From the NCBI RefSeq assembly GCF_029962835.1, contig NC_080589.1, forward strand, positions 22,244,586 through 22,308,585: a DNA stretch of 64,000 nt, given 5' to 3'. Below the pieces are notes generated by a model. It did not search any database and had not been told where the DNA came from. It saw nothing but the letters and a program-made list of their open reading frames with translations. Positions 25,485 to 46,900 of the stretch are shown piece after piece (position 1 is the stretch's first letter; every line of letters starts with the position of its first letter). The position numbers and the translations under genes were made by a program. Source of the stretch: Magnolia sinica. Taxonomy: Eukaryota > Streptophyta > Magnoliopsida > Magnoliales > Magnoliaceae.

Positions 25485-25700
25485 ATGTAATGGTAGTAGT
25501 GGTACTCATTACGCATTACAAGGCCAAAACGGTCGTTACATATAAAAAAAATGACCTGTAACAGCCCTGAAATGGTCCCATAACAATCATAAATTTTTTA
25601 TTTTTTTTTCAAAAAATAAAAAACAACCACAACAAGGGACGTATCGTAATGGTAGTGGCAATGGCCATTCCGGCCACCGTACCAATATGAAACACCTTGG
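25485..25700. mobile_element. Short GTAACG-family MITE
   Basis: Contains GTAATGG, CGGTCGTTACAT, GACCTGTAACAGC and GTATCGTAATGG, with AAACACCTTGG at the right edge. It resembles the sequences around 34530-34654 and 42306-42424. Exact ends uncertain. Confidence 0.45.
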
Positions 25701-33061: not shown

Positions 33062-34646
33062 GAGGAAATGCTAAGCCATCCCATTGAACATCTAAGAGAT
33101 CTCCTTCAATCAAGCATGCCAATGTCTTGTAATTACAAGAGAACCTTACCTTCCACCTCCAAATTGCATTATTATTGAGGTTCAAGTTATTATTGGGGTT
33201 CATGCTTATAGCCTCAGGGTTGAATTCAATCAGGTGCTAGCTACCACCACCTTTAGCATTGGAACAAGAGACTGTTTCTTTGCTGAATGGAAGCACGCCC
33301 AAGGATTCCAATTAAAATTTGGCCACTTGATCCTGCAAATTCAGTTGCTATATCAAGATCTGAATTGAGTAAAATATAAATATATGTATGTATGTATGTA
33401 TATAGACAGCCTAGGCTTCTATTTGTGTACACAATGATTGTAAAGCATGATTGAAATTTAGGAAAGCTTTAATTTCGGGAAAATAATAATAAAGTTGCGT
33501 ATTAACTTGAATGACTCTATTCTGATACTTCTAACTGATGACATGGCCGATCATATCAAGAACCAAACTACCCAACCCTCCATCAAAAGAGTTAACAAAA
33601 AAAACATTGTGATTATCTGCAAAATGAGAAATTAGGGAGACTGATTTTCCACAATAAATACAACTGAAGTTTTAATTCACCTGACTGAGTGGGGCAACCT
33701 ACCAAGAAGGGACATGAGATAGTGTAGCGCCCATTTGTTCTCTTTTTTCTTTTTCTTTTTCTTTTTTTTTTTGGAGTTCTAGAATTGGTAAGCCTGCAAG
33801 CATTCAACATGCAATTTGTTATTCTACTGGTTTCTTTCCACAAACTAAGTTTGAAGGATTTTTTCACTTACCAGAATGGGCTCTGACTATGGGCAGGGTA
33901 GGTAGAAATGCTAACTCTACAAGCTTTTGCACAAGTTGTCATGGGGACATAGAGCAGATGTGTACAGGATCCAACCCATTCATACAGTGGGCTCAACCAT
34001 ATGAGCCATGGCTCAAAAAATCAGGCTTATCAGACAAAACTGCTCGTTCAAAACATGGCCCAAGGACTGGCCATTTTTACCTCAAAACAAGCAGTAAGGA
34101 CAGTCCAATTGGGCTGATCTTTGGTCATGACAACTTATGGCATGAACTGCACAATGAATGGTCCTGATCATATAAATATCTGCCATGGGTCCCCAGGGAA
34201 ACTTGTGTGGAAAAAAGAAAAAAACATAGGAAGTAGTGGGCATTCAGCATTTCAAAAACCAACTTGAAACTATGAGTACATGAAAACTGCACTCTACTGC
34301 CTACCAGTAGCCAAGGATTCTACATTTAATGCTTTCCCAAAAGAGGAAAACATGGTACCAAGATACGGAATAAAAAGTTTACTACATCAAGCGACAAAAA
34401 AACAGTAACCCACAGATAAAATTAGAACCCGTACGCTCATAGCTGATTAAGACCAAATACAAGTTATAAAACCCATGCAGAAGGCCCTAATAAAAACCAC
34501 GGCAAACTGAAGATCTCTTTCTTGGAAAAATTGACCCATAACGACCCCATAATAGTCCTGTAACAGCTGCAACAGCTCCGTAACTTTACAAAACAGGTTT
34601 TTTCAATATATATGTGTGTGTGTGTGTAACTGCCATTACAGCCTGT
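33062..34646. other. Unassigned DNA with an interrupted GTAACG-family MITE at its end
   Basis: A 92-codon frame at 33889-34167 has no recognisable motif. From about 34530 (CATAACGACCCCATAATAG, CTGTAACAGC) the sequence is of the GTAACG MITE family and is cut at 34654 by hAT copy A. Confidence 0.4.
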
Positions 34647-37284
34647 ATCGTAACTAGGGGTGCACATGAACCGAGCTAGCTCGGTTGGCTCACTCGACTC
34701 AAATCGAAAAAGCTCAACTCGACTCGGATTGAAGCTGAGTTTGAACCGAGTCGAGCTGATTTTTGAAGCTCGAAAACGAGTTCGAGCTTGCCCTAGCTCG
34801 ACTCAACAAGGATTGAATCCAGCTCGAACTCGGCTCGACTCGGTGCAAGGTATATATACCCTTCAAAAAAAAAAAAACCTGCTTAAAAAAAAAAAAAACC
34901 CTCCCTCCCTTACCGGCATGGCCACCCGCACGAACCCTAACCGGCTAACCCATTTGGCCATTTCCCTTAACCTTAACTCATCTTCCTCCCTCTCTCTCTC
35001 TACTCTCTCCCTCCTCTCTCAGGCGCTCACCTCACCTTCCGGCCATTTCCCTAAACCCTAACTCCCCTATCCGGTCGCCACATCGACTGTCCGGTGGCAA
35101 CTCCCCTACCCAGTTGCCCCTACCCCTACCGCAACTCTCCAGTCCGAGTCCGACCGCCGGTAAGCTACAAGCCCGGTCGCCCCTGCCCCCCTGCCCGAAT
35201 GGAACTTACAACTTGAGTTTAATGTTGAAGTTTTTATTTATTTTAATCTTTTGTCAAACTTACAGCTTGAGCTTCCTCTCTAGGCATAATTCTTCAAACA
35301 CTTCATCAATTGCAGATTTGCAGTTTGCTCAGGTGCTAACTCTTTCCTTTTGAACAAGTGGTAAGAAATGCATTCCATTTTTTGTTATTTTTTCTGCATT
35401 TGTGTTGATTCAACATGGTATGAACCAGAATCTGCAAGAAATGCATTCCTCTACATTGTTGTTTTTCTACAGTTCTTGGTGCCAATCTAGGAAACCAGCC
35501 CCTTTCAGCCTGATTTTCAGTATGACCCAACTGAGTTGCAAAATTGCCTGATTTTGGGCTGACCATTCATCCGAGCCAGATGAAGGATCTAAATGACCTG
35601 GACTCCATATATCCAAAAATGGTGGGCATCCCCTCTCAAATTTGTCCCTATCATGTAGCCCACCTGAGTTTTGGATCAGCCTGATTTCTAGGCTTATGAC
35701 CAAAGGTTGGGAGAATGCATTTGACAGATGGGTTGGATGTCGTGCATCCATCATGTGGGCCCCACAACAGCCCATTACTACTATAAGCTATGGTGGAACT
35801 AGTACCACTAGAGCACACCTTATGGATTAGAGAACTTTGGATGATTTTTTCTCAACTGTATGTTTGCTAAGTGTGCCAGCTGATAGAACAACCTGATTCT
35901 TGGTATAGGGAACCAAATAGTGGTACCCTTTTCATGGATGGCTTAGATATTGCACCTGTCCACCATGCTAGAATATATGCTGGCATGTTCATTAGCTAAC
36001 TTGTACATGTATGCGGGCTTAGCGAAGCTCATATATGTGTGTGCATGTGCCCTTGCTCGCGTGTCCACAAAATAACACTCATACATATAAATGCCATTAC
36101 ATGAAGAAGCAACACATGCAAGAGCAACTAAACAAGCAAACAAAACAAGAAACCAAACCCATTTGTTTGCATGTAGTGATGAATTTATATCCAAACTCAC
36201 TAATAAATGTCTTAAATAAGGAATTAAAATGCTAAAATGCAAAAATTAAAGAGCCCAACTCCACTCTAACCCTCTGCATATCAACTGCATGGGCCTTGAT
36301 ATACGCATCCATATATACGCATCCATTTGCTATTAGTTTCTATTTATTTTAAATGTCCAAATGTCTAAAAGGTTGTCAGAAATAAGGATTTGACACAACC
36401 GTGGTGTATAAAGCATATGGATAGGGTCCATTATATTCTCATTCAATTCCAATCTCTCCAACTTTGAGGGAGAGGGGTCTTCAACAGCCCGTTTGGTAGA
36501 AGAGGTAACACCTCTAGCCATGCTCTCTGAGCAGTAGCTCCTTTGGAGCCCGCTTTCACGTCGGCCCAAGGGTCTTAGCATGGAACTACCAGATCTGCCC
36601 GTTGAGTCTAAAAGAGAGACGCAATGTTTTTTGTTTTTGTTAGCTAGTCTTAATTTATGCTTATACCTATTGCCTATTGGATATCTTTTATTTTTATAAA
36701 TGTTGTTAATAGTTAGTTGGATGATGACAGTTGAATATCTTTCAGCTTGCTCTTTTGTTTGGCTAGATATTAATTGTTTTATTGTTCTAGTTGTAATATA
36801 GGATAATCAGTTGCCCATTTGAGAATTTCTATGTTGCCAGACATAAATTCAATGTGTTCTTGGATGCATAGAAATTCTCAAATTTTCCCTTTTTGGACAG
36901 TTCAATGTTGGATAGATAATAATATTTTCATTTATTCTAATTTAAATGCACATGTTTGTTTCGGTTCCTCTCTCTTAATTCTCCCTGGATATATTTCTTA
37001 CATTTATTTCCTCATCAAATATCCACACTTTGTGTGAAGAGTTGACGTGCGAATCAAATACAAGATTAATATATTCTGGAGAGATAAGGGGAGATGCTGC
37101 CGAAATTTTGGCGTAGCATTTAAATTGAATAATGAAAGCATTACAATCTATTCAACATTGAATGGGTGACTAATTTAAACGCTTAGAAAATTGTTGAAAG
37201 TTTAGAGCACATTTATACACATATGATACACCACTTAGGAAATTCTTTACTAAGGTTAGATGAAATTGTTTCATATCTTTAGAG

Positions 37285-39320
37285 ATGGCCAGTGAGGATG
37301 AAGTCCCAACTACCCCTGGTGCTGGCGCGTCAGCCACATCACCTCTTGTTGTTGAGGGAGAGGGGTCTTCAATTGCAAGTAAAGGAAAGAAACGGTCAGC
37401 TGTCTGGGATGATTTTGAAGTAGTAGTAGTAATAGTTAACAATGTCGCTAAGATCAGATGTCTGCACTACAAAACTCTATACAACAAAAATACCAAGGGG
37501 TTGACTACTCATTTAAACAGACATAGGCAAAGTTGTTCAAGGAGACCTAGAACTCCACCTTCAGGCCGACAATTACTATCGTTTATAAAGTTCGAAGGAG
37601 CTTCTTCTGAAGGTAAACTTACCACTCATAAGTTTGAAAAAGAGAAGCTGAATGAGTGGTTTGCAAGGCTTATTATCGTTGATGAGCAACCATTTAAAAT
37701 GATAGAGAGTGAAGTGTTCATGAGATACAGTAAATTCCTTAATCCTCAGGTTGAGAAGGTTTTCCGTATTACTATGAAGAGGGAGTGCATGAAGATGTAC
37801 GTAAGTGAGAAAATGAAGTTGAAAACAGTTTTAGCATCGGTTTCAAGGATAAGTTTGACTTCTGATATGCAGACGGCACAAAATCAAAGAAAGTGATACA
37901 TTTCATTGACTGCACACTATGTTGATGAAAATTATAAACTTTGCAAGAAAATATTGAACTTTCGCCACCTTTCATCTCTCTATTCCGGTTTGGTTATTTC
38001 AAATTGCATTTACAACTGTTTACGAGATTGGGGCATTGAAAAAAAAGTCTCTTCATTAACTTTAGATAATGCTTTAACAAATAATAGTGTAATATCATTC
38101 TTATGTAACCAGTTCAAAGCAACCGACAATTATATTTTGGGGGAAAAATATTTCATTTTCGGTGTTGTGCACACATCCTGAACCTAATTATACAAGACGG
38201 GTTGAAATCAATTGACCAAACTATAGAGAATGTGAAGGAGAGTGTAAAATACATAAGAGGCTCGCCTTCGAGATTGAGTATATGAAATGACATAATCCAA
38301 CGTTTGAATATGAAGTCTCCAAAAACGTTGAAGCTAGATGTATGCACATTGGAATTCGACTTTTGAGATGTTGGATTCGGCCCTGGAATTAGAACTTACA
38401 TTACCAGAATATGCAACGCGTGATAGAACATATGCTTGGTTGCCTACTGAAGAAGATTGGAGCAAAGCAAAAGAAGTTTACAAATTTTTAAAAGTTTTTT
38501 ATGACTATACGAAAATATTTTCTGGCAATAAGAAGAAGATTGGAGCAAAGCAAAAGAAGTTCACAAATTTTTAAAAGTTTTTTATGACTGTACGAAAATA
38601 TTTTTTGGCAATAAGTTTCCTACAGGAAATATGTTCCTTCCAACTGTGTAGAAGATCAAGGAAGCCCTAAAGAAAGGTGCCAGTGAAGGTCCATTTTTTC
38701 TGCAACTCATGACAGGTGGTATGCAAATAAAGTTCGATAAGTACTGGGATGAATGCTATTTGTTAATGTCCTTAGCTATTGTTTTTTATCCTTGGTGCAA
38801 GATGAGTTATGTTAAGTACTTCTTTATGAAGATTTATTCTAATGAAAAGGCAGTAACTGAAGCCTCGAAGGTTCGTGACGCAATCGAAGCATTGTACAAT
38901 ATGTACACAACCACAAGATCCACGCCAAGTGTTAACGAAGTTAGATCGCATGCTGCCACAAGCTCTGACATTATGCTCGACGATGATTACATGTCTTTCT
39001 TAGCAAAAGAAAATACAAACACTGAAACGAAAGAATCAGAGTTAGACTTGTATCTCAGAGAGTCAATCGTAATGCGGCAGAATTCAGACTTCGATGTTTT
39101 GGAATGGTGGAAAATGAGAGTTAGTGAAGGAAAATACCTTACACTATCAACGGTGGCACGAGATATTTTGTCAATTCCTATTTCAACAGTGGCATAGGAA
39201 TCTGTTTTTAACACAGGGAGTAAGGTCGTGAGCAAGACTCAAAGCTCCCTTGCACCAGATACAGTGGAAGCATTAATTTGTACACAAGATTAGTTGTGTC
39301 TAAGTTTGAGAAGTTCTAAT
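37285..39320 (+). pseudogene. hAT transposase, broken (copy A)
   Basis: Pieces in order: 37285-37896 (N-terminus with a BED-type zinc-finger region at residues 59-80, where the expected C-x2-C reads C-L-H-Y before T-H-L-N-R-H); 37906-38181; 38338-38574; and 38709-39197, with the RNase-H-like core and the C-terminal dimerisation region (E-W-W, then L-S-T-V-A-R-D-I-L-S-I-P). The BED finger binds element ends and the core cuts DNA. At least four frameshifts or stops interrupt it, including an 83-bp tandem duplication at 38451-38616. The second BED cysteine is replaced. A TAG stops the dimerisation domain at 39195-39197. Not functional. Confidence 0.88.
38451..38616 (+). repeat. 83-bp tandem duplication inside the transposase
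   Basis: Units start at 38451 and 38534 with AGAAGATTGGAGCAAAGC. They differ at a few sites (TTTACA/TTCACA, CTATACG/CTGTACG). 83 is not divisible by three, so the duplication shifts the frame. Confidence 0.92.
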
Positions 39321-39586
39321 ATTGATGAGGAAGAGGAGGAGAATGTGTTTCAAGCCGCATCACATGAAACAACAAAAACATGAATGGAGTTATGTTAACA
39401 TTTCTTGTTAATTTATTGGAACTTGAAAATGATGTAATGGGTACTCTTTTATTTTTTTATATCATGTAGATAGATGTTATACGCGCAATGCATTAATGGC
39501 GTTTTTTTCCATCCATAAGTTGCTTTTGTTTTATGTTGTATTTCGTTATTGCTAAAATACTAATTTTTCCAACATAATATGTAGAT

Positions 39587-40224
39587 ATGTCTTCAAGTGA
39601 ACCATCGATCGACGTTTGAGACTATGATTCCTTAGTTCATTCTCCAAAAGTTTGGAAAGTTAAAGATTGTCTCATTTGTGTGGAGCCAAGTTTGTTAACA
39701 AAATTAATCGGCTCAGATTACACTTATCCTGTCGAGGTGGAGATGCAAAACCGTGTTCTAAAGCCCCAAAGGAAGTCCAACTTCTTTTCCAAGCACTTAT
39801 TGATTCAAACAAAAAAGCTTCCACTCCCCCATCCAAACTTTATGAGGCAGAAGAGGAAGCTAAATTATTAGCATTGAAAGAAGAACAATTCCAACTCACC
39901 TTAAAGCACAGTATGGAAGAGGCTTTTACACATCAACGATGTCCTCCAAGACAACATGATGTCGAAGCAGGTTAAAGCTGCACAACTAAAAAGAAGAAGA
40001 ATAAGAATTCATCAAAGTTTCTCTCTAGTCTTGGTGTGTTTTACAGGACGTTGGGAACTACGTATAAATCTTCTCACAAAAAAAGTTAAAAAAATCTAAT
40101 TCAAACTATGCAAGAGGGCGATAAAAAGCTATCTCCACCTTCTGATTCGGGAGAGGTGAATGAGTACGTATATGAAGATTTGGATAGCAGCTCGAGCTTA
40201 GCAGGCGAATCTCCTCTACAGTAG
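39587..40224 (+). pseudogene. Accessory ORF downstream of the hAT transposase (copy A)
   Basis: ATG 39587 follows a splice-acceptor-like TATGTAG. The frame has TGA at 39617, ten codons in, then a zinc-finger-like C-G-A-K-F-V-N-K with R-L-R-L-H-L-S-C, a stretch rich in K and E, and a lysine-rich segment (K-K-K-N-K-N-S-S-K-F-L). Copy B encodes the same protein and stays open longer. I do not recognise a named family. The C...C...H...C spacing suggests a second DNA-binding (BED-like) protein. It lies inside the element, directly 3' of the transposase. Confidence 0.6.
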
Positions 40225-41242
40225 CGTCTTCAGTTTGTATTTGATATTTTATTTTATGGTCTATTGTGTTATTAAATGTATGTAGTAAAATTATAATTTT
40301 AACTCGATACTTTCGACTTCCTAGTTCCAAGTTCCGACATTGTATAATCTCGAAAACTAAACTTGAATTCAAATTTGAAAACTACACTAGAAAATTTAAC
40401 TTGAACTCGAACACGGCTCGAAAGCTCGAGCTTAAACATGGCTCGAGAGCTCGGCTTGAAAGCTCGAAAGCTCGAACATGGCTCGAAAGCTCGTGCTCGA
40501 ACTCGGCTCGAACCGGTCCGATTGCTGACTGAGCCAAGCCAAGCTGGAGATGCTGGCTCCGTCACCAAGCTGAGCCGAGCCAAGCTGGAGATGTTGGCTC
40601 CGTCACCAAGCCGAGCCGAGCCGAGTTCGAGCTGGGTGTGCCTGGTGACCGAGCCAAGCTCGACTCAGTTCGGCTCGATGTACACCCCTTGTTGTGGATT
40701 TTGGGCTTTTTAATTGGCTGAAATAGGGCTAGATTTGGGCAATGGGTTATGATAGGGGTCAAATTTGGATTGGAATATGGCTGATTTTCTGGGCTTCTAA
40801 TGGGCAGGAACATGGGTTTGATTTGGGAGGATAGATGGTTGTGGAACGTTTGGCGGAGTCTCCCCTTTATCAATTGGACATTTGGGCCTTGTTAAAGAAA
40901 AGAAAAAGTGAAGGGGAGTAGCACCAATAGATGTAGTTTTTTTTTTTTTTCCTTTTTATTTAAATAAATAAATAAATGATTAAAGAATTTGGAAGCAAAA
41001 TATTGAGATTGTTGTTGATTCATGATTTTAATGTAGTTGTTGGAACTCGCTTTGATACCAATTTAATGTGGGCGATTGATGGGAATGATTTGCCCAAAGG
41101 TAGGCACCTCCAAGCAAATCACAAGAATAACAAAGTAAAAAAATAAGAACTAGGATTTTTATTCATTTCAAAGGTTCCTTGGTAGTTGGTACTACTCATG
41201 TCAGGCCCTTGAATTTGCTCATTTAGACCTTCAAAGAAGGAA

Positions 41243-41424
41243 CGATTTTTTTTTTTTTTGAAGACACAAGGTGTACCCACCCCTTTATGAGGTGAGACTA
41301 TTCCCCGCGGATACACGCAATAACCCACAACCAAGTGGATCGGGTAATGCCGAGAAGGGGAGTCGAACCCACACCTGTAGGGAGCAAACCCACGATGATG
41401 GCCGCTTGCCTAAACCTCGTTGGG
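41243..41424 (-). mobile_element. tRNA-derived SINE with 13-bp target duplication
   Basis: Flanked by TTCAAAGAAGGAA at 41230-41242 and 41425-41437. On the minus strand the order is A box TAGGCAAGCGG (41402-41412), B box GGTTCGACTCC (41359-41369), a body, and an A tail (T run 41246-41259). These are the internal RNA polymerase III promoter boxes of tRNA-derived SINEs; GGTTCGACTCC matches the B-box consensus exactly. Length about 180 bp. It was inserted by LINE machinery in trans (family knowledge). Confidence 0.9.
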
Positions 41425-41654
41425 TTCAAAGAAGGAATGTTCATTCTTAATGTGATTGACAACTAATGACTTGTTGCAAAAATGAAAGAGTAATTAAGAA
41501 AAATACTCAATGGATAAGAAATCCAATGGGATTTTATTGCGTGGCTGACTGATTGATTGTGCATAGCTAGTCTTCTTATTAATGGGCCGATTGTGGGGCT
41601 TGGGCCTGGCCCATGGATCTTGGGCCTAGTTCAACTTGTATCACATATCATCAT

Positions 41655-42830
41655 CTTCATTTTAGATACACTCAACTTATCCTTAATTGCCCAACGTTGT
41701 CCTGTAAAGCATGATGTCTTATGTTTATCCTATAAAATTATCCTTCTAGTTTTAGTGGTACATGATGATCACATAAAACGCTAGAGGTTGATCTTCCTTT
41801 CTTCCACCTATATTGAATTCTATGGGCAACAATCTTCTCAATGTCTCCACTCTCTTGAATTATTCACCCAAGATATTAAAAGTGGTCATTTTGAGAGACT
41901 TTTGGGTCAATAATCTTAACTAATTTCTTGTTTCCATTCCCGTTGTTACTAAAATTTTACTTCATACACTTTGTTATGGTTTGATTAATTTTAAATCCTT
42001 TAGATTCTAAAGCACCCTTCGATGAATCTAGCTTTGTGTTTACATCCCTCCGTTGTTTTGTCAACCAAAATTGTCATCTACACAACATACACCATGGTAT
42101 CTCCTCTTGCAAATGCCCATTTAACGACTCCATAAACCAATGGGAAAAGGTACGGGCTCAATGTCAACGCCTAATGCAAGCCTACAACAATTGGGAACTT
42201 GTCTCTCCACTTGTAGTCCACACGTTTGTCATTGCTCCCTCACATATCTTTATATCCTCTTTAAACTCCTTTCTCAACGCCCATTTTAAATTTCTAGGAA
42301 CCAAGGTATTCCATAACCGTAATGGTGGATGTAATGGCCATTGCAATTATTTTATGATACAAACTTATAATGTGTAACGGTTGCCACTGTTTTACAACTG
42401 TTACGTAACTGTTTTTGAGTACCTTGCTAGGGACCCTATCTTATGCTCTCTCTAAGTCAATAAAGACCATGCTAAGATCCTCCTTTCCCAGTATTTCTCC
42501 ATCAATTGTCTAAATAGTTAAATAGCTTTAGTGGCGGACCTCCTAGCAAGAGTCCAAACTGATTTTTTTGATGCACTTGTCTTATGACTTTGCTCAATCA
42601 CTCTCTCTCTCTCTCTCTCATAAATTTATAGCATGTTCATAAGTTTAATTCCATGATAGTTAGTGCAACTTTGTTGTCTCCTTTATTCTCATAAATAGGT
42701 ACCACAATACTTTTCCTCCATTCATTCGGAATTTTCTTCGATCTTACATTTTTGTTGAGCAACTTCGTCAACCAAAATAACCCAGTATCTCCCATGCACT
42801 TCTAAAACTCTCATAGTATCAAGGTATTCT
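41655..42830 (-). pseudogene. LINE reverse-transcriptase relic
   Basis: Minus-strand frames give, in order, N-E-W-R-K-S-I-V-V-P-I-Y, then N-Q-F-G-like residues, D-L-E-R-A just before D-R-V-P, a V-D-D in place of the polymerase A-D-D box, E-S-K-G-F-K-I, and L-K-L-E-G-x-F-Y-R. This is the order of plant non-LTR retrotransposon reverse transcriptase. Frameshifts and stops are many, and the endonuclease part is absent. A short MITE (42306-42424) interrupts it after D-R-V-P. In the window the LINE runs on the minus strand; before the proposed inversion it would have run on the plus strand. Confidence 0.7.
42306..42424. mobile_element. Short GTAACG-family MITE inside the LINE relic
   Basis: Starts AAGGTATTCCATAACCGT and ends ACGTAACTGTTTTTGAGTACCTT, an imperfect inverted repeat. 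Family members also lie at 25485-25700 and at the hAT target sites (34530-34654 and 42819-42883). Confidence 0.55.
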
Positions 42831-43238
42831 CGATGTATTCTGTAATGTTAATAGTGGCCATGACAAACTAAGGCCGTTACGATTAGGGGTGTACATCAAG
42901 CCGAACACCGGGCACACCCAACTCGAACTCGGCTCGGTGACCGAGCCAGCATCTCCAGCTCGGCTCGGCTTGGTCAGCAATCGGACCGGTTCGAGCCAAG
43001 TTCAGGCTTTCGAGCTTTCGAGCTGAGTTCGAGCTCGAGCTTTCGAGCAATGTTCGAGTTCGTTTTTCAAGACGAGTTCGAGTTCAAGTTAAAATTCATA
43101 GTTTAGTTTTCGAAATTATACAATGTCGGAACTCGGAACTAAGAAGTCGAAAATATCGAGTTAAAATTATAATTTTACTACATACATTTAATAACACAAT
43201 AAAGCATAAAATAAAATTTCAAATACAAACTGAAGACG

Positions 43239-43877
43239 CTACAATAGAGGAGATTCATCTACTAAGCTCAAGCTGCTATCCAAATTTTCATATACGTACT
43301 CGTTCACTTCTCCCGAATCAGAAGGTGGAGATGGCTTTTTATCACCTTCTTGCATTGTTTGAATTAGATTCTTCAAACTTTCTTTGTGAGAAAATTTATA
43401 CGTAGTTCCCAACGTCCTATAAAACGCACCAAGACTGGAGAGAAACTTAGATGAATTCTTATTCTTATTCTTTTTAGCTGTGCAACTTGAACTTGCTTCA
43501 ACATCATGTTGTCTTGGAAGACATCGTTGATGTGTAGAAGCCTCTTCCATACCGCGCTTTAAGGCGAGTTGGAATTGTTCTTCTTCCAATACTAATAATT
43601 TAGCTTCCTCCTCTGCTTTATAAAGTTTGGATGGGGGAGTGAAAGCTTTTTTGTTTGAATCAATAAGTGCTTGGAAAAGAAGTTGCACTTCCTTTGGGGC
43701 TTTATGACACGGTTTTGCATCTCCACCCGAACAGGATAAGTATAATCTGAGCCGATTAGTTTTGTTAACAAACTTCGCTCCACACAATTGACACAAATTC
43801 TTCAACTTTCCAGACTTTGGAGAATGAACTAAGGAACCATAGTCTCAAATGTCAATCGATGGTTCACTTGAAAACAT
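43239..43877 (-). pseudogene. Accessory ORF of hAT copy B (longest form)
   Basis: ATG at 43877-43875, then TGA at 43847-43845 in the tenth codon region, the same position as the TGA in copy A. After it the frame stays open for about 200 codons to the stop at 43239: C-Q-L-C-G-A-K-F zinc-finger-like start, an E/K-rich middle (residues ~60-90), K-K-N-K-N-K-N-S-S-K, and an acidic end (N-E-Y-V-Y-E-N-L-D-S-S). Without the TGA it would be about 212 residues. Function unknown. The position and finger-like cysteines suggest a DNA-binding partner of the transposase. If stop read-through or another start is used, it could still be translated. Confidence 0.55.
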
Positions 43878-44149
43878 ATCTACATATTGTGTTGGAAAAA
43901 TTAGTATTTTAACAATAATGAAATACATCATAAAACAAAACCAATTTATGGATGGGAAAAAAAAGCCATTAATGCATTGCGCATATAACATCTATTAACA
44001 TAACATAAAAATAAAAATAAAAGAATATCCATTACATCATTTTCAAGTTCCGATAAATTAACAAGAAATGTTAACATAACTCTATTCATGTTTCTATTGT
44101 TTCATGTGATGCGGCTTGAAACACATTCTCTTCCTCTTCTTCATCAATA

Positions 44150-44780
44150 TCAGAACCTCTCCAACTCAGACAACCAATCTTGTATACAAATTAATGCTTC
44201 CACTGTATCTAGTGCAAAAGAGTTTTGAGTCTTGCTCACGACCCTACTCCCTGTGTTAAAAGCAGATTCCGATGCCACTGTTGAAATAGGAATTGACAAA
44301 ATATCTCGTGCCACTGTCGATAGTGTAAGGTATTTTCCTTCACTAACTCTCATTTTCCACCACTCCAAAACATCGTAGTCTGAATCCTGCCGCATTACGA
44401 CTAACTCTCTGAGATACAAGTCTAACTCTGATTCTTTCATTTCAGTGTTTGTATTTTCTTTTCCTAAGAAATACATGTAATCATCGTCGAGCATAGTGTC
44501 AGAGATTGTGGCAGCATGCGATCTAACTTCATTAACACTTGGTGTGGATCTTGTGGTTGTGTACGTATTGTACAATTCAGTTACTGCCTTTTCATTAGAA
44601 TAAATCTTCATAAAGATGTACTTAACATAACTCATCTTGTACCGAGGATAAAAAACAACAGCTAAGGACATTAACAAATGGCATTCATCCTAGTACTGAG
44701 TTGCAGAAAAAATGAACCTTCACTGGCACCTTTCTTTAGGGCTTCCTTGATCTTCCACACAGCTGGAAAAAACATATTTT
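44150..44780 (-). pseudogene. hAT transposase C-terminal part (copy B)
   Basis: A 175-codon open frame (44677-44150) carries the end of the catalytic core and the dimerisation domain: E-W-W-K-M-R-V-S-E-G-K-Y, L-S-T-V-A-R-D-I-L-S-I-P, then E-S-A-F-N-T-G-S-R-V-V, which copy A has lost to a stop. About 20 codons present in copy A near the E-A-S-K-V-R-D-A segment are deleted. The N-terminal two thirds are missing. Confidence 0.85.
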
Positions 44781-44854
44781 CAGTAGGAAACTTATTGCCA
44801 GAAAATATTTTCGTATAGTCATTAAAAACTTTTAAAAAATTGTGAACTTCTTTT

Positions 44855-46900
44855 ATACATGCAAATCATTAATTTTTTTCCCGTATTTATGAATAATGAT
44901 ATTTTAATTTTCTATTAAGTACTTTAGTTTATTTGAATTAAATAAAATAATTTTATTTTTATTTAATAAAAAATAATTTCTTTATAATGTAAAACATTTC
45001 CAAACAAGAGATAGGGGCAAATGTGTCAAATTAACATATTTCAGACATTTCAAATGTTTGTTAACAAATAGGTTGTTTCAAATTCAGTACTTAATTTTCA
45101 GATTCAACCATAGTTACCAAACAAGTTTTTTAACTTCAGATTTCATATTCAGGCTTTAGACGTCAGATTCAACAAACGGGGCCTAAATCTTCTTTTGTAG
45201 AAGACATCTTTTTAGTTATTTGTAGATCTTATAGCAGAACCTTTTCATGCTAATAACCCTCTAAAAATCATCCCCCACCACCATATTTCTTTACTTGTGC
45301 TTCTCTTGCAGCTTCTCCCATCTTCAACTTCTGAATTGCCAATCGAGTTTCGAGGATTTAAATCATGGTCCACATATGAGTTAAGTTGTGTCAACGTATG
45401 GGATCTCCAAATCAAAAAAGATTTGTTCAAAACAGCCATATAAAATTGTTTCACCAATTGCAACTTACGGAACAGGCAAGAAGATTGCCTTGAGCCGTAA
45501 ATAATATCAGAAAGCCAACACATGGAGCCTGTATTTAAGAGCAACACATAAATGGCATGAGGCTGAGTAGGTACAATACCAAGCGGGTCACCCACAAGTG
45601 GGAAACCCACAATAAATGGGCCAGATTCCTGAACCATTGCCTATTTAAGTCCCAAGCTTTCCCTGCAAAGCCTTGATAAGAGATAGTGCCCCTTTGCAGC
45701 TCCTCCCCCACTCATTACCAAACGTGCAATATTAAAACCGAAGACTACAAAGCATCTACGGCTCTAATATTCAAAGGCATGGTCATGGATGAGGTAGCAA
45801 ACTGCTATAGTAAATTGCAAATCTAATATCTTTCAACATCCAGTTATTCAAAACATCAAAAGTACCATAAGCTAAACAATATCTTTCAACATCTAGTTCT
45901 TCAAAAATCACAAGTACCATAAGCTAAACTCCAAGCAACCATCTCACAAGATATCCAAAATAGTGAGTTCAATATCTCTTCTATTCCTCACAACACAGCA
46001 AAAGGGGGCAGCCCAAAAGATCAAAAAATGCCCACATAAAAACAAGAAACTGGGGGAAAAACCATAACCTGATTATGAAGGTACCTAATATGTGTTAGAA
46101 AAAACATTCAGTACTCTAAAACACACAAAATAATCACAAAGCTCAAAAAATCAAAGGAATAATAACCAAAATGAGGAAAAATCACATTTTGCACAATAAT
46201 CAACTACCAGCATCACACCATTAAAGACAACCAAATTAAAGGTAATGACAATCACATTCCAGCAAGTTTTTGGCATAATCAGTTATACCATATAAATAGA
46301 AAATCACACTTAATGCTCTAATGATATCATTGGGCTAATGCTGCCAAAATCAAAGACACATTTGACACTTGCAAAGACAAGTTACAGCAGGCAGCAATGG
46401 CAGTCCAGGACTGGACAGAGGGGTTAGAACAGAGCACATTGCAAAAAAGAGTCTCACCTCAAGAATGCATTTTCAAAAACCCTCCAAATTGGGGATTTAG
46501 AATACACTCAAATCCAAAAACACCAAATTCCAACTGCCAAATGCACCTTCAAACTGAAATCCCATCAAATACACCAAACACCACCTCCAAACAAACCCTA
46601 ACAAAACATTTGTACACACCTGACCATAATATACTTTTCATCTTATCATCACTCAATCTCCATGAAAGCTGGACTACATTTCAAATGTCTAGAAAATGTT
46701 ACAGAGCTGGACTACATTTCAAATGTCTAGAAAATGTTACAAATTACCAATGGCAGATTGAAGACACCCAAAATTCAAATGATACACATTATGAACCCCA
46801 CACAGGTGGCACAACACACTTCCAACTCATAGCAGACCATTTTTGCAGCCCACAAAGCACTGCAAATGATTTACAACCTGTTTGTTTGGCTTTAAGTTGT
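44855..46900. other. AT-rich DNA with an unrecognised 130-codon frame
   Basis: 45245-45637 (minus) is open for 130 codons. Its composition is not clearly low-complexity, but I recognise no domain and see no flanking splice sites. The 169-codon frame at 46397-46906 contains a 38-bp tandem duplication that would break a real reading frame. I call no gene here. Confidence 0.35.
46667..46742 (+). repeat. Perfect 38-bp tandem duplication
   Basis: AGCTGGACTACATTTCAAAT... repeated at 46667 and 46705 without a mismatch visible by eye, so recent slippage. Confidence 0.9.

Follow-up and report, generated by a model that had tools for sequence, protein, structure and literature searches.

Inversions between two copies of one cut-and-paste transposon are a known kind of event. 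In maize, Ac is a hAT element and fAc lacks its 5' end. In the reversed-ends inversions formed by Ac/fAc at p1/p2, an 8-bp target duplication is split between two copies at two junctions, and one copy lies inside the inversion with the other just outside (PMC8225341). In Drosophila buzzatii, inversion 2z3 carries two inverted copies of the DNA transposon Galileo at its breakpoints, with the target duplications exchanged; Galileo is a P-superfamily element that makes 7-bp duplications (PMC2775673). The same report treats hybrid-element insertion, which leaves an inverted segment between two copies that stem from one site, together with a new duplication (Fig. S1A of PMC2775673), as an alternative to crossover, the two being told apart by identical versus chimeric copies. 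The locus described here is a further example of this kind of event. It lies in the genome of Magnolia sinica, in a window of 64 kb (the whole stretch of DNA analysed, contig NC_080589.1, positions 22,244,586 to 22,308,585), and consists of a segment that appears to have been inverted between two hAT copies, which we call A and B.

This locus resembles p1/p2 in its split 8-bp duplication and in the placing of the two copies, and 2z3 in its two inverted copies with a duplication exchanged between them; it would resemble the hybrid-element product if both copies derive from one site. There are differences in each case. For 2z3 both exchanged duplications survive, the copies were proven chimeric and uninverted chromosomes were compared, whereas here one pair of duplications is lost and no clear switch point marks the copies as chimeric. 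The maize progenitor is known and the inverted fragments measure 80.9-81.8 kb, whereas the segment here is 2.2 kb (8.2 kb with A) and its progenitor is a reconstruction. As for the distinction between hybrid-element insertion and crossover, the two copies here have diverged and the second flank of B is missing.

We regard it as highly probable that the interval 40691-42883 is an inverted segment. The present order is L - MITE left part - t - hAT A - u - Y - t - hAT B, where L is the left outer flank, MITE stands for a miniature inverted-repeat transposable element, t is the 8-bp sequence ATCGTAAC, u is the flank at the 3' end of A, and Y is the inverted segment between A and B (Table 1). We hold with high confidence that, before the event, L ran without a break through the MITE into the reverse complement of Y. 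The original prediction for this locus had the coordinates and strands right. Its inversion of 40691-42883 is borne out by one target duplication common to the 5' end of A and the 3' end of B and by the rejoined MITE, while the crossover with swapped 3' ends through which it explained the inversion is neither supported nor refuted.

Table 1. Features of the inversion locus, in window coordinates (LTR, long terminal repeat; SINE and LINE, short and long interspersed nuclear element; R, right outer flank; names beginning with L and a number are matching genomic loci)
Feature	Position	Strand	Basis or remark
Left outer flank L	33330-34521	+	68% match to L087/L088
GTAACG-type MITE, left and middle part	34522-34646 (start approximate; L homology ends 34521)	+	cut at hAT junction
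Target duplication ATCGTAAC, 5' end of A	34647-34654	+	adjoins A terminus
hAT copy A	34655-40690	+	both termini present; Pfam domains; relative L065 aligned over most of 34956-40625
Body of inverted segment	40691-42819	-	LTR-like dispersed repeat, SINE-like insert, LINE fragment; kinds named by eye
Same MITE, right end part, ends ...AATACCTTG	42820-42875	-	joint match to L084
Target duplication ATCGTAAC, 3' end of B	42876-42883	-	adjoins B terminus
hAT copy B	42884-44854	-	3' terminus intact, 5' part missing; starts at A-equivalent 38552
High-copy repeat adjoining broken end of B	44853-45184 (right end approximate, 45171-45197)	+	genome matches
Right outer flank R	45301-45377	+	L087 3817-3893, same strand as L at L087 1350-2485

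The first line of evidence is the split target duplication. It had been noted that A is preceded and B followed by the same 8-mer, and ATCGTAAC indeed abuts both termini exactly. It has exactly two exact occurrences in the window, each in the orientation of its own copy. Since this count is near chance (expectation 0.90, standard deviation 0.96, with at least two occurrences in 25 of 100 shuffles), the evidence is the exact abutment on two hAT termini of the right polarity and not the number. The figure of 1 in 65,000 once attached to this match is correct for one fixed comparison and should, in our judgement rather than by computation, be relaxed for the several possible end pairings and for a GTAACG-rich target; the MITE join described below is independent of it. 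The accompanying claim that neither copy has a matching duplication at its other end holds for A, where the mismatch is real: by direct reading, the 3' flank (TTGTTGTG or TGTTGTGG) differs from the 5' flank. B has no 5' terminus to compare.

How often hAT copies of this family keep their duplications was read from relatives elsewhere in the genome. A 5' stretch was fetched for eight of them and the 5' end was found in three (a further stretch of L065 gave no 5' end); perfect 8-bp duplications, GGAAGAAC, CCCATCAG and CTTACAAG, are present in 3/3 relatives with both ends located. The unpaired flanks of A are therefore unusual, within this sample of three. The 3'-end motif was located in 16 of 23 relatives and not in the other seven. 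All 16 located ends read CCCCTA, the search motif having itself included the final A and the match in L027 lying well past its aligned part; the base that follows CCCCT in A is T.

The second line of evidence is the older repeat into which t falls. The parts outside the two 8-mers are complementary portions of one MITE, meeting at t. We searched the whole genome (1.84 Gb, 127 contigs) with a 180-base query made of 34531-34654 and the reverse complement of 42820-42875, joined at query 124/125. Its matches were its own two parts and a single other place, L084 (C2:48979608), which matches query 83-165 uninterrupted across the join (75%, E 3.7e-6, 66/88 columns). In local alignment to L084 the join scores 87 and either part alone 58 and 43; shuffling the right part 500 times gave a mean of 59 and never more than 76, and substituting the 3' flank of A or the R flank gave 60 and 58. 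With t doubled in the join the score is 93, versus 87 with a single t, as L084 has extra GTAACG-type bases there. As an alignment, then, L084 supports the contiguity of the two MITE parts, but not the singleness of t. The idea that these are halves of one interrupted MITE had been put forward with a copy at 25485-25700 as its example, which proves a weak model (score 34); the uninterrupted match to L084 sustains the idea itself.

One could try to explain this anatomy without any inversion, by two insertions that arose separately, each in a MITE copy of its own but at an identical 8-mer, the other duplications having been lost or mutated, or by an assembly error. GTAACG-rich MITE sequences do occur elsewhere in the window and in other loci, L084 cannot separate one copy of t from two, and the part of the LINE beyond 42819 was not found beside the L half, so that the L side is at least truncated. 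Yet the MITE parts complement each other with t as their meeting point, the right flank of A has no trace of t, and the window lies inside a 73.8-Mb contig. We consider an origin without inversion very unlikely.

The outer flanks agree with a change confined to the interior. L and R are in the same order and on the same strand in a paralogous locus, with a spacing of 1.33 kb there versus 10.8 kb here, and this collinearity indicates that the outside sequence was not inverted. The paralogue is found at two places, L087 and L088 (C35:101334 and C5:31818942), whose coordinates mirror each other and whose identities are equal; as sequences they are not exact reverse complements, and they may be near-duplicates. 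Among the 40 candidates scored, 19 additional places match most of 33996-34427, within L, at 70-74%; this part is perhaps a gene-family fragment or an old repeat.

Within Y, the LINE fragment (41644-42819) is interrupted by a small MITE at about 42303-42416 and ends at 42819, where the target MITE starts; other LINE copies run further. The missing continuation was sought beside the L part of the MITE and was not found. As a loose end, either the L side lost some MITE and LINE or the LINE arrived truncated. When L was compared with the reverse complement of Y in search of a target duplication left by the LINE, the matches were only 11 to 12 bases long, included one mismatch and did not fall at a consistent position. 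By eye, two different LINE copies carry ends of GTAACG-type MITEs (CAAGGTAT...) at points of one LINE region that are ~12 bp from each other, at 42820 here and at about 2533 in L008. Relatives of the LTR-like dispersed repeat begin 4-9 bases from the 3' end of A in seven rows. The SINE-like insert (41230-41437, minus strand) has a poly-A run and, by eye, 13-bp direct repeats TTCCTTCTTTGAA on both sides.

A and B are members of one large hAT family, with 1069 first-look candidates and, with B as query, 1894 (40 scored each). A begins with TAGGGGTGCACAT at 34655 and ends in ...ATGTACACCCCT at about 40690; the 3' terminus of B, on the minus strand, is ...ATGTACACCCCTA, ending at 42884. The family has the short terminal inverted repeats of hAT elements, TAGGGGTGCACAT and ATGTACACCCCT(A/T), and the three relatives with both ends located have the 8-bp target duplications; A shows none of its own and B, lacking its 5' end, could show none. 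The Pfam matches of A within 38652-39197 are to the hAT RNase-H-like domain PF14372 (E 6.3e-18 in A, 2.4e-06 in B) and the C-terminal dimerisation domain PF05699 (5.3e-15 and 4.7e-28). A and B are 87% identical over A 38552-40574. The homology of B to A ends at 44854, equivalent to A 38552, and matches to the high-copy repeat begin at 44853; that repeat has 1531 first-look candidates, of which 40 were scored including itself, the other 39 at 88-94%. An inverted duplication of the 3' half of A was ruled out as the source of B, as the 3' flanks of the two copies differ.

We aligned A and B with 23 relatives (25 rows) and built trees with FastTree. Support for a clade of A and B is 0.996 over the whole shared region, 0.975 in the left half and 0.944 in the right half, and without L068 and L072 (23 rows) 0.996, 0.972 and 0.940. 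After itself, the best genome match of B is A, among the 40 scored of 1894 candidates. When L065 serves as the third copy, A and B have 12 rare derived sites in common, A and L065 one, and B and L065 five (3, 0 and 0 under the strictest filter); under a looser filter the count for A and B is the highest against each of 16 third copies. Many of the changes are recurrent and of the type C to T or G to A. A and B appear to descend from a single element, although the sister relation is narrow. Their tip branches measure 0.040 and 0.052, roughly threefold their common stem of 0.014, which places the separation of A and B early in the existence of these copies. Such an early parting fits the presence of transposase, and equally a local jump.

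Which route led to the inversion is less clear than the inversion itself. We tentatively favour, at somewhat below an even chance and by the narrowest of margins, hybrid-element transposition between sister chromatids as the whole mechanism. According to this reading, there would at first have been one hAT element at u, at the far end of Y. A hybrid element made from the copies on the two sister chromatids would then have transposed into t, and the product would be an inversion flanked by two copies, with A joined to L through t and B joined to Y through t, while the 3' flank of A and the 5' side of B would retain the old site u. A later deletion at 44854 would have taken the 5' part of B together with its copy of u. 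The general outcome is that described in the text and Fig. S1A legend of PMC2775673; the order produced by the sister-chromatid cuts is our own derivation and does not come from that paper. The hAT transposase may thus have built this inversion from one element present on two sister chromatids, with the transposon acting as maker and not as passive homology; the locus would then be a natural fossil of such an event, in which the split duplication can still be read.

Hybrid-element transposition is ranked first for its economy alone, one element giving two inverted sister copies in the same act. One insertion and one event suffice, and the sisterhood of A and B is something that this mechanism requires and its rivals merely allow. 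Several observations nevertheless weigh against it. It needs a second step, the deletion at 44854, and u, sought with at most one mismatch at 44855-45400 beside B, was not found, the 5' flank of B that was expected to carry it being gone. The sister relation is narrow, with identities of 92.6% for A and B versus 92.1% for A and L065 and 91.2% for B and L065. Of the seven bins with values, A and B are each other's best match in 2/7, another copy being ahead for A or B in the other 5/7, and they are not grouped at 40050-40350 alone. Under the strictest filter, rare sites shared by B and L028 exceed those shared by A and B (5 vs 2), as do those of B and L072 (2 vs 1), and L025 ties. The copies differ at 109/1595 scored sites, so that identity at the time of the event cannot be shown; local transposition would likewise make sisters; and nothing out of the ordinary is needed for inverted repeats a few kb apart to cross over.

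Such a crossover is the next explanation. Ectopic (non-allelic homologous) recombination would have taken place between two inverted copies, an entire hAT at t and one at u that lacked its 5' part, within the 3' half common to both, inverting Y, swapping the 3' ends and leaving both copies chimeric. It predicts the same anatomy, a split t and a 3' flank of A, u, that comes from the other copy, and the two copies offer about 2 kb of shared inverted sequence only 2.2 kb apart. Exchanged duplications and chimeric copies are moreover the published signature of the Galileo inversion (PMC2775673). If the 3' halves of A and B had been swapped, an alignment of them might show where, and such a check had been proposed; against the 23 relatives no switch point stood out clearly, and the surroundings of 40092 gave just a weak hint. 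There, the best split of the derived changes (45 in A, 63 in B) gives A a share of 0.48 on the left versus 0.11 on the right (p = 0.056), and the failure of 40050-40350 to group A with B points the same way; a change of affinity around 40092 is at most a hint. Five A-B indels of at least 2 bp lie before 40350. Four of them occur in A or B alone, and the fifth, a gap at 39453, also lies within a larger gap of L067; those after 40350 fall in a fast-changing GAGCTCG-rich stretch. A and B are so close that an exchange could have taken place and left no clear switch point.

Other observations count against the crossover. A and B are sisters on both halves, the longest stretch over which they are now identical spans 48 bp, which does not exceed chance (mean of shuffles, 66), and two inverted insertions that happen to be sisters are needed. 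Changes relative to the majority number 83/1831 in the unique part of A, 75/1575 in its shared part and 33/785 in its right half, compared with 88/1519 in the shared part of B and 47/787 in its right half. The equal load in the unique and shared parts of A, together with that of the right half of B, mildly disfavours the 3' part of B as the continuation of the 5' part of A, the differences being small for a discriminator between mechanisms. Taken together, we give the crossover a chance that is also short of even, and place it second to hybrid-element transposition.

The route closest to the maize case is reversed-ends transposition, in which A and B would have been direct neighbours, the 3' end of B and the 5' end of A would have been used together with loss of the DNA between them, and insertion at t would have inverted A plus Y. 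The 5' truncation of B fits this route, and no u is needed at the 5' side of B, where none was found. However, the truncation may be secondary, and the route calls for two direct insertions and for the loss of a segment that nothing found in the window shows. We consider it unlikely. The three routes differ in the flanks that they predict: crossover and hybrid element both give t..u for A and u..t for B, and reversed ends t..u for A and ?..t for B. As B is without its 5' end, this diagnostic flank is lost, and on the evidence of one genome either transposase or ordinary recombination may have been the maker.

Some further observations concern the hAT copies as such. The transposase region of A contains an 84-bp tandem duplication (38449-38615, 96% between units) of which L065 has one unit, and the broken end of B maps to an A-equivalent position inside the second unit. 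The family has another open reading frame downstream of the transposase, some 200 codons long, at 39620-40230 (+) in A and 43239-43844 (-) in B. It is fully open in B and L034 and nearly so in L029, and the stretch measures 588-620 bp in 25/25 aligned rows. Subfamily majorities differ there at 27/579 sites, compared with 34/491 in the transposase and 31/254 in the region between them, with no excess of differences at third codon positions. By eye it resembles a BED-type finger; Pfam gave no significant match. Elsewhere in the genome, L054 820-3001 with L025 (C10:81176000-81180741) is another copy, whose 3' end breaks off at A-equivalent 40160 and is joined to fragments of this family in opposite orientation; it may represent a further hAT-on-hAT rearrangement.

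To our knowledge, transposase-made hAT inversions are known chiefly from marked maize stocks. The present case is a small one among old repeats, and is of little consequence alone. However, a split target duplication plus a split older repeat form a two-part signature that can be searched for in any plant assembly, and such screening would allow the inversions made by hAT families in nature to be counted, by route.

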